A stretch of 64,000 bases of DNA from an uncultured Spirochaetaceae bacterium (GTDB lineage: Bacteria; Spirochaetota; Spirochaetia; Sphaerochaetales; Sphaerochaetaceae): positions 62,001 to 126,000 of the forward strand of contig CALXLD010000022.1 of the NCBI GenBank assembly GCA_944389105.1, written 5' to 3'. Shown here one piece after another: positions 49,839 to 57,572 of the stretch (position 1 is the stretch's first letter; every line of letters starts with the position of its first letter). Under the pieces are notes generated by a model, which had not been told where the DNA came from, searched no databases, and saw only the letters and a list, made by a program, of their open reading frames with translations. The translations under genes and the position numbers were made by a program.

Positions 49839-49910
49839 GGGAACAATGTATCATATCCATATTAGCAAATTGAAGAAGCTATAATATACTTATCAATTAT
49901 GGAGGTTAGT

Positions 49911-51888
49911 ATGTTTGGTCCAAAGAAAAATAATACTGACAGTAATATATTTGCATGGGGGGGGGTATAAGTTATTACTCATAGCTATCACACTCCTCCT
50001 GATAGCTGTATCATGCCAGCAATATGACTGGGGAATGATAATCCCGCCGTTTTCCCGGCCGGGAGAAATAGGATCTGAAAGCAATCCATATACAATTTCC
50101 TCACAGGAAGATCTGGAATCTTTAAGGTCCATGAATACCGAAGGAATATATTTTGAACTCTCAGCAGATATTATTCTTAACGATTCATTTGATCCAATTC
50201 CCGTATTCAAAGGAACCCTAATAGGAAACGGCCATACTGTAAGCGGGCTGGAAACAAAGGAATATGCCTCATTTGACGAATATGTAGCTGCGGGTGGTTA
50301 TGTTATGGATGAGACAAGAACATTCAGTGCTTTCATCCAGGTTCTTGATGGTGGGAAGATAAGCGATATAAAATTCGAGAATTTCAATATCAAAGCACCT
50401 CCTGCATCGACCAATAATAATCATCGTTATATGGCAGTGGCTGTCGGAGCAGTTTCAAATGGAGCTACCGTAGAAAAAATCGTCATAGGATCGGGAACAC
50501 TCACTTCCCCTGTAAGAGCTGGTGGAGTTGCTGCTTATGTAAAGAATACAGATGGCTCAAACACCGTTAATACTATTGCAGAATGTATAAATAACGCAGA
50601 TATAACAACGGAGATTATGACAGACACATATGGAACTGCAGGAGGAGTAGTTTCAACAACAGCAGATGGTCCTGTCCTTATCGAGGCTTGCGAGAATACA
50701 GGAACAATAACCGGATATGTAGCTGGAGGCATTATTGGAGATATCCAGAACAACCTTGGAACCGGCCGGACAAGCGATGGCACAACGATAAATGGTATTC
50801 TTCTTAATAACTGTTCAAATAGCGGCAACATATGCGGTGTTGAATATGCCGGTGGAATTGCCGGTAATTTCTGGTATGGAGCTGGAGATATAAATTCAGC
50901 TTCCAATTCCGGAAAAATTGAATGCTATATTCCCGACGGGGTAACAGCACCAGCGAAAACAAAGCTGGGAGGAATAATCGGAGCTTCGCTGGTATCAGAT
51001 AACAAAAGAACTACCCATTACATAATAAATAGCAGAAATACTGGTGATATCGCTAACGAAGAGAACAGCGTAACAGCTTACATTGGCGGAATTATAGGAA
51101 CAGCTACGTTAGGACATATAACAATCGAAAACTGTTATATGGAAAGAGGAACACTTAAAACCGTAGAAGGCCCGGATCAGGCATATTCATCTACAAAAGA
51201 TCCCGTGGAAGAAGTCTCTGTTGGCGGAATAATCGGGAAAACCGAAGGCAACCAGATTACAATACGCAATTCATATGCCTTTGATGATGTCATTTATAAT
51301 ATACCTGCAGGATATAGATATGGAGAGATTGCAGGATATTTCGGCAGTGCAACATTCGATGTTTCCCCTGGATACAAATTCGACGATGGAACAACTGCAG
51401 ACTGGACTGATGAAGCCGATATCGAAAGGATGATGAATCAGGTACTATTCGATGAACCTACCGAAATAAAACAGCCGTTCGGTGTCTTCACGGCTTTGCA
51501 ATATTCCAGAGCACTAAGAGCTGAAAATATCACAGCTGAAAAATTCTACATTGGCGGAGCAAGCCGATATGTTACTGATGAAATTACACAGAGCTGGGTA
51601 ACAGGGAAAACAATCTATGATCTGACAGGTTGCAAAATCAAAGAACTGCATAGGGATCTGGACTTTGGTTCAAGAGGAGGCGGTGGCAGACAGACTTCCG
51701 TGCTCAAAGGTGTTGATATAGAGGAACTTATAATTGATGTCGATACAGGCGAAGAACCCGACTATGCACCGATAGGCATATACTTTGAAATAGATGATTC
51801 CTTCAGCTTCACAAACAATGCAACCGTTCATTTCTACTTGAATATAAACAACACCCAATATAAAAGTGCAAGCGGGAATATAACTTGA
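49911..51888 (+). CDS. Surface lipoprotein with GGxxG repeats, poly-G phase-variable start
   Basis: From the Shine-Dalgarno-spaced ATG at 49911 (GGAGG, 5 nt gap) translation meets a stop at 49968 just past a run of nine G. The long frame (to 51888) is one base off: with eight G it would give 658 aa beginning MFGPKKNN. A TTG at 49915, 9 nt from the same Shine-Dalgarno, reads it now, perhaps weakly. The protein has a lipoprotein core ending LLLIAVSC, then about eight GLUG-like GG[IV][IV]G repeats with NSG/NTG turns, a beta-helix pattern. It is AT-rich compared with its neighbours and ends before a perfect hairpin. Confidence 0.8.
49957..49965 (+). repeat. Poly-G tract (G9) near lipoprotein start
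   Basis: Nine consecutive G, the longest G/C homopolymer I found here, 46 nt inside the coding start. Loss of one G joins the Shine-Dalgarno-spaced ATG to the lipoprotein frame. It could equally be a sequencing length error. Confidence 0.9.
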
Positions 51889-54156: not shown

Positions 54157-55076
54157 TTCAAAGCCTCCCTCAAAACCCCTACATTCTCCCCCATTAAATC
54201 AACATAGTTCTTACCGCTATAGAAATCAGAAGCCGTGACATTATGAAGAGTATTGAAAACCATGACATCACACCCCGCTTCCTCTGCTATTACATCAGCA
54301 ATCATCTGCGAAGAAAGTTCAATATTGAGAATGCAAGGCACTTCAAGTTCCCGTGCTTTATCAATAAGAAAAGCAACTGTCCTGGCACTTGGCTCGCTCT
54401 CTTCTGCACATCCGGGAAATGCTGCGTAATACTCAAGTCCATATTCCCTGACAAAATACAGAAGAGGAAATCTGGAAGCAAAAATAAGAGTATGCCTCTT
54501 TCCTGTCTGGACAATGCTGCGGAAAGCCGTATCCATCTCTTCTATCTTGCTGATATATGATAAAGCATTGCTTCTATAATCATCAGCCATTGCCAGATTC
54601 AGGCCAGCCATCAGCTCAGAGAGATTTCTGATTATCACAATCTCGTTTCTGGGGCTTGTCCAGACGTGCTCATCAATTTCATGGACATTATGATCATGCT
54701 CTTCCTCTTCCATGCCTTCAGCATGCTCCTCAGTCAGAAGCTCTACCTGATCCGTCAGAGCGAAAGAAGCAGGAGGAGTATCAAGAGAAGAGATTATTGT
54801 CCTTACCCATTCATCGGAAGGACCACCTGTATAGACCACAAGGTCGCATTCGGCAATACGTATCATATCACGCGGAGTCGGATCATAACTGTGGCTTTCT
54901 GTCCCCGGCGGCAAAAGCATCACGATTTCAGCATCATTTCCTGCAATCGCTCTTGCTGCATCATACGATGGGAAATCAGAGGCAACAATCCTGAATCCGG
55001 AATCATCATTATCCTCACCCGTACAGGAAGCAAAAAGCAGTATGAGAGCAAGAAGCAGAACGGACAGCTTATTCAT
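54153..55076 (-). CDS. znuA: Zinc-binding lipoprotein of ABC transporter
   Basis: The 307-aa metal-binding protein has a lipoprotein signal (MNKLSVLLLA, LLFASC, cysteine at 18). The ligand histidine is in GTESHSYDPTPRD, and a mobile acidic His-rich loop (HAEGMEEEEHDHNVHEIDEH) is typical of zinc chaperone-type ZnuA. The ATG at 55076 has AGGAGG upstream; a longer in-frame ATG at 55181 lies deep in zur. Its start overlaps the zur 3' end by 8 bp. Confidence 0.92.
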   Translation of the reverse strand: MNKLSVLLLALILLFASCTGEDNDDSGFRIVASDFPSYDAARAIAGNDAEIVMLLPPGTESHSYDPTPRDMIRIAECDLVVYTGGPSDEWVRTIISSLDTPPASFALTDQVELLTEEHAEGMEEEEHDHNVHEIDEHVWTSPRNEIVIIRNLSELMAGLNLAMADDYRSNALSYISKIEEMDTAFRSIVQTGKRHTLIFASRFPLLYFVREYGLEYYAAFPGCAEESEPSARTVAFLIDKARELEVPCILNIELSSQMIADVIAEEAGCDVMVFNTLHNVTASDFYSGKNYVDLMGENVGVLREALN

Positions 55077-55455
55077 ATTTCCTCCTGCATTCACTGCAAA
55101 GCCCTTCAAAAACCGTGGAATCAAGTGCGACAAAACCTGATGTTTCCTCGACAAGGCTCTCAATCCTCTCCGTAGCTTCACAGCTGAGATGCTCCGTACG
55201 GCCGCACATACGGCATCTTATATGCATATGGCTTGCACAGCTATCTCCCTGATACTGGAAGATACTCTTCCTCCCATCTGTTCCCGTCTTCCTCAGGAAT
55301 TCTTCCTCGGAAAGCTGTGTCATTATCCTGTAGACAGTTGACTTAGGTACATAGGCAAGTGATGAGGCAACCTCATCGGGTGTAAAACCTCTCTCCTGAT
55401 TATCCAGGAAGAACTTCTCAATTGCATCCCTCTGCCTTGTATGGTATGAACTCAT
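55069..55455 (-). CDS. Fur family regulator, probable Zur
   Basis: The 128-aa repressor has a winged helix at residues 1-75 (FLDNQERGFTPDEVASSLAYVPKSTVYRIM) and a C-terminal dimer/metal domain with HMHIRC, CRMCGRTEHLSC and CSECRRK cysteines for structural zinc. The first gene of the znu operon, it is preceded by its own operator and promoter. The ATG has no Shine-Dalgarno. The operon context indicates zinc (Zur) rather than iron or peroxide. Confidence 0.9.
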   Translation of the reverse strand: MSSYHTRQRDAIEKFFLDNQERGFTPDEVASSLAYVPKSTVYRIMTQLSEEEFLRKTGTDGRKSIFQYQGDSCASHMHIRCRMCGRTEHLSCEATERIESLVEETSGFVALDSTVFEGLCSECRRKYE

Positions 55456-55461
55456 GGAAAC

Positions 55462-55476
55462 TGAGAATAATTCTCA
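55462..55476. promoter_or_regulatory. Fur/Zur-type operator (7-1-7 inverted repeat)
   Basis: TGAGAATAATTCTCA, a perfect 7-1-7 palindrome of the Fur-family type (compare TGATAATNATTATCA), covers the -10 of the zur promoter, so binding would block RNA polymerase. It gives direct autoregulation of the whole zinc operon. Confidence 0.8.
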
Positions 55477-55492
55477 ATTTCATTAACGTCAA
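55464..55492 (-). promoter_or_regulatory. Promoter of zur-znu operon, near-leaderless
   Basis: Minus strand TTGACG (55492-55487), 17 bp, TATTCT (55469-55464), then 8 nt to the ATG at 55455. Predicted leader is 0-2 nt. Confidence 0.6.
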
Positions 55493-55539
55493 GCACTCTG
55501 CTAGAAGATGCAGATTTAAGTTACTACCAGCAATTCCTA

Positions 55540-55548
55540 TGCTAAAAT
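55540..55548 (+). promoter_or_regulatory. Extended -10 of the poly-C lipoprotein gene
   Basis: TGCTAAAAT, extended -10, 22 nt before the ATG at 55571, with GGAGG as Shine-Dalgarno between. The same nonamer recurs at 62277. The -35 is weak. Confidence 0.5.
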
Positions 55549-55570
55549 CAAATCAGCAAATGGAGGATTT

Positions 55571-56777
55571 ATGAAAAACAAAATACCCCCCCATCACAAA
55601 ATATCTTATTTTCTTAGCTCTGATTCCTATACTGCTCATCGCATGTAACAACGGAAACTCACTTAATCCGATAATCTGGGCAGAATACTTCAACTCGAAT
55701 CGTGCAATATCCATTACAGGGCCGGAAGTTATCGATGTAAAAGCCGGAGAAACACCCACGGATACATATACGATAACCTATCGAAACGGAAACTCTGCTG
55801 AACTTTCCGCAGAAGAGGTCTTTGCAGACCTTGATACAAACAAATCCGGAGTTCAGAACATAAAGATAAGCCGAGATGGAGCTTCACTGGATGTCACTGT
55901 ATTTGTTTATGATTTCGGGCAGAAAGAAATAACTACAGAAATGGCCAAGCGCATTACTGAGGAGCTAACAAGCGGCAATCCAGATCCTACAGCTCTGAAA
56001 TTCGTGCAGGGATACAACATTCTCATCGAACAGGAAGGATTGAATGAAGGACCGGTGTATATACAGGATGAACAAACTGTAAATATTCCCGGAAATGGTC
56101 CAGTTACCTTCACTCCTGTATGGGGCAACAATCTCTTCCGGGGTCCTGCAGATTTCAGATTACTGAAACTTGCAGGGGAAGAAGGCAATCCGGTAGATTC
56201 AATATTTGCTATTGAAGCCAATAACATCATTGTTGAATACATCAACGGAGAGCTCTCAGGACTGAATAGTTCTGTTTCAAACAATGTCATCAACGGTATA
56301 AAGATAACAGGAACTGATGTTATCCTGCGTGATGCTGAACTGTATTTATCCTCATCTATCACGCCGCCTGAAAACAGGACACTTGTTGCACTGAATATTG
56401 ATGCAGAAGGCGTACTGATTGAGGACGTTGGGCTTCATGGCTTTGAAACTGGTGTCCTCATTTCTGAAAACGCCTCCGGTACCATAAAGAATGTGGATTT
56501 CAGCGGCCCGTGTATCATCAACACAGAGAATAAACTGCCAGAAATCAATCTTACCGGATGTACAGCCACAATGTATGATGGAGCAACTGCCGATGTAGTC
56601 ATCAGATGCCCAGAAGGTTTGAAAACAGATGCTGAGAACTGGATCTCTTCTCAGCAGGTAGCAAATCCCGGTCTTATATTCGGAATTGAAATACTGCAGG
56701 ACGTCGATATCGGAGGTGCTGAAATAGAGGATTGGGAAGAAGTCATTATCGATGGAGGCGAAGTCACAATGGACTGA
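55571..56777 (+). CDS. Beta-helix lipoprotein, out of frame by one base at a poly-C tract
   Basis: ATG 55571 follows GGAGG at ideal distance but after a run of seven C reads out of frame and stops at 55646 (25 aa). With six C (or nine) it becomes a 401-aa lipoprotein: MKNKIPPITK, core ending ILLIAC, then NNGNS. I translated the shifted frame codon by codon to 55941 and found no stop; it then runs to 56777. The mature part is asparagine-rich and beta-rich, with repeats like VLIEDVGLHGFETGVLIS that suggest a right-handed beta-helix. It is read here as phase-OFF rather than decayed. Without the shift only an N-truncated 278-aa piece from 55941 could be made. Confidence 0.75.
55586..55592 (+). 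repeat. Poly-C tract (C7) near lipoprotein start
   Basis: Seven consecutive C, 15 nt after the ATG, exactly where the frame breaks. Loss of one C restores a complete lipoprotein gene. Confidence 0.9.
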
Positions 56778-56790
56778 AAACCAGCAGAAG

Positions 56791-56820
56791 AACCCATCAC
56801 TTCTTCCAAGGTGGTGGGTT
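56791..56820. terminator. Hairpin after the poly-C lipoprotein
   Basis: AACCCATCAC, 10-nt loop, GTGGTGGGTT (one G:T pair) between the convergent lipoprotein and GDPD genes. No T-run follows. Confidence 0.55.
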
Positions 56821-56843
56821 CATCCAGTTATCTTCTATAGTTT

Positions 56844-57572
56844 TCAGGCATTTCTGCCAAGAACGGATTTAGCTTTCTCCACCTCATTGGTTATCAGGCC
56901 ATCGATACCCCATTCGATGCATTTCCTCATTTCCGTTTCTTCGTTTACAGTCCATACATTAATGCGCCGTGCATTGCCCTGGAGCTCCTTGACTGCGCTA
57001 TCATCAAGAATACGATACGATGGATGATAGCACTCAATCCCCATATCCTTCATTTCATAACCGATGTTATAAAGCTTCATTCCATCAAAAAGAAGCGCTA
57101 TCGGGAACTGAGGGGCTATCGATCTGATCTTAAGGACGGAAAGCCAGTTGAATGAGGAAAAGAGGATTCTATCCTCACATCCGAAGCGTCTTATAAGCTC
57201 CAGTGTCTTCTCCTCTATTCCTGGGTAATAGACAGGTGCTGTCTTAAGCTCAATGTTCGTATAGAGCCCCGTGTCTTTTATCATTGAAAGGTACTCTTCT
57301 AACGAAGGAATCGGAGTGAAGCCGAAACTATCATCTTTTGTCTTTCCAGCATTTATCTGCTCCAGCTCTGAACGGGTGTAATCGGATACAAGCCCTTCTT
57401 TTCCTGTTGTTCGGCCAAGAGCCTCATCATGGATGATCATCACCTCGCCATCCTTTGAAAGGTGAACATCGAGTTCAATCGCATCGGCACCAGACTCAAC
57501 AGCCTTTCTGAAGCTGAGCATCGTATTTTCAGGGAATTTCCCGCTATATCCTCTATGTGCAATAATGTCCAT
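56844..57572 (-). CDS. Glycerophosphodiester phosphodiesterase
   Basis: The 242-aa cytoplasmic TIM-barrel enzyme releases glycerol 3-phosphate from phospholipid head groups. Catalytic motifs are AHRGYSGKFPENT (residue 5 on) and ELDVHLSKDGEVMIIHDE (about residues 38-55). There is no signal peptide. A GGAGG lies 14 nt before the ATG, rather far. Confidence 0.92.
   Translation of the reverse strand: MDIIAHRGYSGKFPENTMLSFRKAVESGADAIELDVHLSKDGEVMIIHDEALGRTTGKEGLVSDYTRSELEQINAGKTKDDSFGFTPIPSLEEYLSMIKDTGLYTNIELKTAPVYYPGIEEKTLELIRRFGCEDRILFSSFNWLSVLKIRSIAPQFPIALLFDGMKLYNIGYEMKDMGIECYHPSYRILDDSAVKELQGNARRINVWTVNEETEMRKCIEWGIDGLITNEVEKAKSVLGRNA

Follow-up and report, generated by a model that had tools for sequence, protein, structure and literature searches.

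How is a gene to be read whose start codon and coding frame disagree, and does the disagreement, which arises at a short run of cytosines, reflect a lesion, an error of assembly or a switch? The gene concerned occupies positions 55571–56777 of the 64-kb stretch of DNA analysed here (the window). Its parts and its two neighbours are as follows:

55562–55566, forward strand: Shine-Dalgarno sequence GGAGG, 4 nt 5' of the ATG, read from the sequence
55571–55573, forward strand: ATG start codon, followed as assembled by a frame of 25 codons and then a stop
55586–55592, forward strand: C7 tract in the first codons, at which the ATG frame and the lipoprotein frame are mismatched; homologues have C8 and C10 there
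55593–56777, forward strand: lipoprotein frame 3' of the C7, 394 codons plus stop, uninterrupted
55635–55646, forward strand: lipobox L-I-A-C, preceded by a hydrophobic signal peptide
55069–55455, reverse strand: Fur-family regulator, left neighbour, which in many relatives directly abuts the GDPD gene
56844–57572, reverse strand: GDPD gene, right neighbour, flanking the lipoprotein gene insertion

Frame and anatomy of the C7 gene

The Shine-Dalgarno sequence, the ATG, the tract starting 15 nt after the A of the ATG and the stop after 25 codons, all of which had been reported in a preliminary description of this locus, were exact on direct reading. The same description had examined the lipoprotein frame for stops as far as 55941; the frame (phase of 55590) is in fact open from 55575 to a TGA at 56775–56777, with its upstream stop at 55572, and the signal peptide and lipobox, whose Cys codon lies at 55644, are likewise present. 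No ATG, GTG or TTG was found in the frame's own phase between 55572 and 55941. Joined to the ATG, the frame would encode a predicted product of 401 residues, which carries the signal peptide and lipobox and is predicted to be lipidated. In this protein Pfam gave only sub-threshold Ig-like matches (weak Big_3, below cut-off) and a fold predicted from its single sequence was of unusable quality (mean pLDDT 46), though the protein is likely beta-rich.

The gene had been described as switched off by one extra C, and this wording stands only in part: C7 does break the frame, but the loss of one C is just one of two equal readings, the ATG and lipoprotein frames agreeing whenever the tract length is divisible by three. 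The locus has the long homopolymer in the 5' coding region that characterises contingency loci, with C7 at the short end, and by frame arithmetic a change in its length shifts the reading frame. The tract is coding and does not lie between a −35 and a −10 element, as it would in a promoter switch of the tp0126 type.

Taken alone, the C7 is not significant and stands at chance level, 0.66 runs of C7 or longer being expected per 64 kb under a Markov model of the window; its position is significant because homologues have C tracts there. On the basis of the sequence comparisons given below, the C7 gene is very probably a simple-sequence contingency locus, that is, one undergoing slipped-strand phase variation within a lipoprotein repertoire. 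Slipped-strand mispairing in the C tract at replication would lengthen or shorten it by one base or a few; at lengths divisible by three the ATG would be in frame with the signal peptide and lipoprotein (ON), and other lengths would lead to a stop after about 17–25 codons (OFF), the assembled C7 allele being an OFF form. We infer that slippage is the cause, that the switching is reversible, that the product is exposed at the surface and that it has a role in interaction with the host or with phages. The C7 allele, being shorter than the typical 9, may switch slowly and may be nearly stable.

Homologues and alternative explanations

Homologues of the C7 gene were sought by alignment in 138 genomes of the host's family and were confined to the host's genus, protein identity between species being 26–31%; scanning the proteins of named genomes with the C7-gene lipoprotein gave no relative, although the whole-genome searches did find relatives. 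Because the fur and GDPD genes abut in many relatives, the lipoprotein gene is taken to be a single-gene insertion. The interval between the two neighbours corresponds to window positions 55456–56843.

Both the comparison of the tract in relatives and the search for intact homologues, suggested in the preliminary description, gave results, which are described here for homologues with a complete 5' end. Five of these carry C8–C10: in G057 (C8) and G016 (C10) the tract lies at the same place as the C7, 13–16 nt after the ATG, and the gene is OFF; in G007 (C9), G047 (C8) and G063 (C8) its distance from the ATG is 75 nt, which puts it immediately beyond the lipobox, and the gene is ON. The rest of the frame is whole in every one of the five. 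In all three early-tract genes (the C7 gene and those of G057 and G016) the frames agree at lengths divisible by three, and a distant homologue in G019 has a C9 tract 5' of its start codon.

These comparisons bear on the possibility that the gene is a fixed OFF allele or a young pseudogene, in which a once-longer, switchable tract has shrunk to C7 and left the gene locked off or decaying. That C7 is the shortest tract in its gene family would suit such a history, as would the presence among the other C7 runs of the genome of ordinary ones, in tRNA-like and coding sequences. A decayed gene should, however, bear other lesions, as had already been argued, and no further disabling mutation was found in the 394 codons after the C7; many OFF relatives and paralogues have equally intact frames, and runs of exactly 7 recur at three other loci (L062, L063 and L065), in lipoprotein promoters or signal peptides. 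We therefore regard a fixed OFF state as unlikely.

It is quite unlikely, too, that the C7 is an error of consensus or assembly which hides an in-frame tract and a gene that was simply ON in the cells sampled. The source genome is a fragmented draft of 2.13 Mb in 47 contigs and homopolymers are error-prone in some technologies, but a C7 is short, independent assemblies repeatedly show tracts of differing length at the same site, and the tract and the switch anatomy stand even if the assembled length is wrong.

A further possibility, that the full protein is made constitutively through programmed frameshifting or through slippage of transcription at the C run, appears very improbable. CCC-C is a shift-prone proline sequence and the C7 gene needs a +1 shift, yet the C8 homologue needs the opposite one and tract lengths are not conserved. 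The shift required in the three early-tract genes is 1, 2 and 1, so that no conserved slip site with a single direction of shift is found, and this difference speaks against programmed frameshifting; moreover, such tracts are also found within promoter spacers and, in frame, downstream of the lipobox.

G/C tracts in the window, the genome and the genus

The window contains only two G/C runs of at least 7, the C7 at 55586 and a G9 at 49957, and both lie at the 5' ends of lipoprotein genes. The second of these, also a candidate switch gene, has the following parts:

49901–49913, forward strand: Shine-Dalgarno GGAGG (49901–49905) and ATG (49911–49913)
49957–49965, forward strand: G9 tract, 46 nt downstream of the ATG, whose frame stops just past the tract
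49966–51888, forward strand: second lipoprotein frame, 640 codons, with lipobox A-V-S-C (Cys codon at 50014)

With the G9 out of frame with the Shine-Dalgarno-backed ATG, this gene is OFF as assembled. Its homologues L181, L183 and L184 have G8 or G9 in coding position, and the closest homologue, L180 (65% identity), has a G9 in the promoter spacer instead.

The genome, which a housekeeping protein groups with Candidatus Ornithospirochaeta and Spirochaetales MAGs, many of them from gut samples, contains 25 G/C runs of at least 8 (6 of 8, 15 of 9, 3 of 10 and 1 of 12), about 4 being expected under the Markov model of the window, and only 7 runs of exactly 7. The counts thus peak at a length of 9, where chance would have them fall steeply with length. 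A lipoprotein signal, defined by a strict lipobox rule, adjoins 17 of the 25 runs, against a background of 2.4% of window positions (binomial p ~2e-22), and at least three extra lipoprotein-linked runs (L050:4001, L053:2273 and L058) were recognised by eye. Judged from its sequence, the genome looks like one in which about twenty lipoprotein genes are controlled by G/C tracts, and which would thus possess a sizeable array of randomly acting switches for its envelope proteins. The proposal that the C7 gene is a candidate phase-variable lipoprotein locus is supported by these many tracts, in the genome and in the genus, as well as by those of its homologues. Pfam matches in some of the other tract genes are to GLUG or Listeria-Bacteroides repeats. 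The mismatch repair gene mutS is present, here and throughout the genus, and loss of mismatch repair was rejected as a booster of slippage for this reason.

A few of the runs differ in kind. A compound A9G9 run (L050:6795-6812) lies early in the coding sequence of a lipoprotein gene; a G9 (L043:4001-4009, gene strand) stands 5' of a non-lipoprotein tract gene encoding a secreted PapD_N chaperone-domain protein; and a C8 at L057:476-483 is situated right beside the stop codon of a guaA-like gene, where a switch role is not evident. Past the lipobox of the lipoprotein gene at L053:4085 lies an in-frame G8, but the start, further upstream and close to an A6 run, is out of frame; a tract of a second type may be involved here.

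Tracts in this genome occupy two positions, either the early coding region or the spacer between the −35 and −10 elements, where poly-G is found at about ten other loci. The promoter class is laid out as TTGACA, 8–11 bases, G8–G12 and then TAGGCT, TATATT or similar, in short form TTGACA-N10-G9-TAGNNT, and has spacings of 17–23; a change in length alters the −35 to −10 distance, which at such loci would be set by the tract. In the genus-wide form of the pattern N9–N10 plus G8–G10 lie directly 5' of TANNNT. It is present in 39 of 48 genus genomes, a reversed-pattern control giving about zero, and across the order in 44 of 139 genomes and 3 of 22 genera. Beyond this it is scattered through other families of the class, and the view that promoter tracts are confined to the host's family was dropped on that account. 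In G250, G296 and G301, three genomes of another such family, TTGACA-N-polyG promoters number up to about ten per genome. Counts for a pattern of Shine-Dalgarno, ATG and tract did not exceed those of its reversed control, which is a poor control because tract-GTA-GGAGG catches promoter-class tracts lying before a Shine-Dalgarno; the loci from this pattern were used only for inspection of frames.

Differences in tract length between copies with otherwise the same flanks were found among paralogues and among homologues in relatives. Two contigs of G019 (C6 and C48) agree over about 60 nt on the upstream side of the tract and 118 nt on the downstream side but have tracts of G10 and G9 respectively; copies of a near-identical 5' module in G047 have G8 or G9; and the leader MEKIRRSILM (MEKIRRSILMG) in G059 is followed by G9, G10 or G11, some in frame and others not. 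Being differences between paralogues or species, they also fit slow divergence. Coding tracts before the lipobox are in frame (ON) in 5 of 24 cases, counting the genome's own loci and those of the genus, a proportion compatible with the one-third expected under length drift, given some ascertainment. Tracts at or after the lipobox were ON in all five instances (L042, L058, L266, L268 and L269), earlier tracts being mostly OFF; this excess may be one of ascertainment, the detection rule favouring ON at that position. Repetition of the 5' modules is the presumed reason why several contigs break off about 100 nt from a tract.

We consider it rather likely that the host's genus maintains a genome-wide, two-mode lipoprotein phasome. 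In such a phasome homologous genes would have a G/C tract of one kind at any of three sites (the promoter spacer, ahead of the signal peptide, or past the lipobox), and paralogues whose bodies differ would have in common a 5' module of promoter or leader, tract and signal peptide.

Comparison with known systems

The mechanism is already known; no description of such a repertoire in the host's family was found among the open-licence papers searched. Homopolymer switching of both kinds is described in Neisseria, transcriptional at the promoters of fetA and porA and translational in the reading frames of hmbR-type genes (PMC5320596; PMC3786947), and the coding class described here matches the translational switches (PMC5320596). 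There is no sequence relation between the two systems; here one protein class dominates, and homologues carry the tract in either position. The phasomes of Campylobacter and Helicobacter comprise around 20–30 G/C tracts per genome, as here, and 29 loci with G/C tracts of seven or more are given for C. jejuni NCTC11168 (PMC4965091); many of the targets in these bacteria are enzymes modifying surface sugars, whereas here they are mostly lipoproteins.

Most work on poly-G phase variation in spirochaetes has concerned the agent of syphilis. One survey found a commensal treponeme to have the fewest homopolymer tracts (PMC8049484), and the large set in these gut organisms is therefore noteworthy; the 20-odd candidate lipoprotein switches suggest that repertoires of this sort are also of use in a commensal life in the gut, as immune, phage or niche bet-hedging. 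Treponema pallidum, likewise a spirochaete, has poly-G tracts of 7–11 at the 5' ends of envelope-protein genes, that of tprL being mostly 9, and in tp0126 the poly-G lies between −35 and −10, with a spacing of 17 nt optimal (PMC7864442). The anatomy of tp0126 is that of the promoter class described here, and tprE/G/J and tprL provide further spirochaetal parallels. T. pallidum nevertheless belongs to another spirochaete family, while the present gut organisms are known here only as MAGs; its switched products are Tpr porins or OmpW, as against predicted lipoproteins; and, unlike its switches, many of the loci described here appear to act on translation, their tract lying within the signal peptide or ahead of it.
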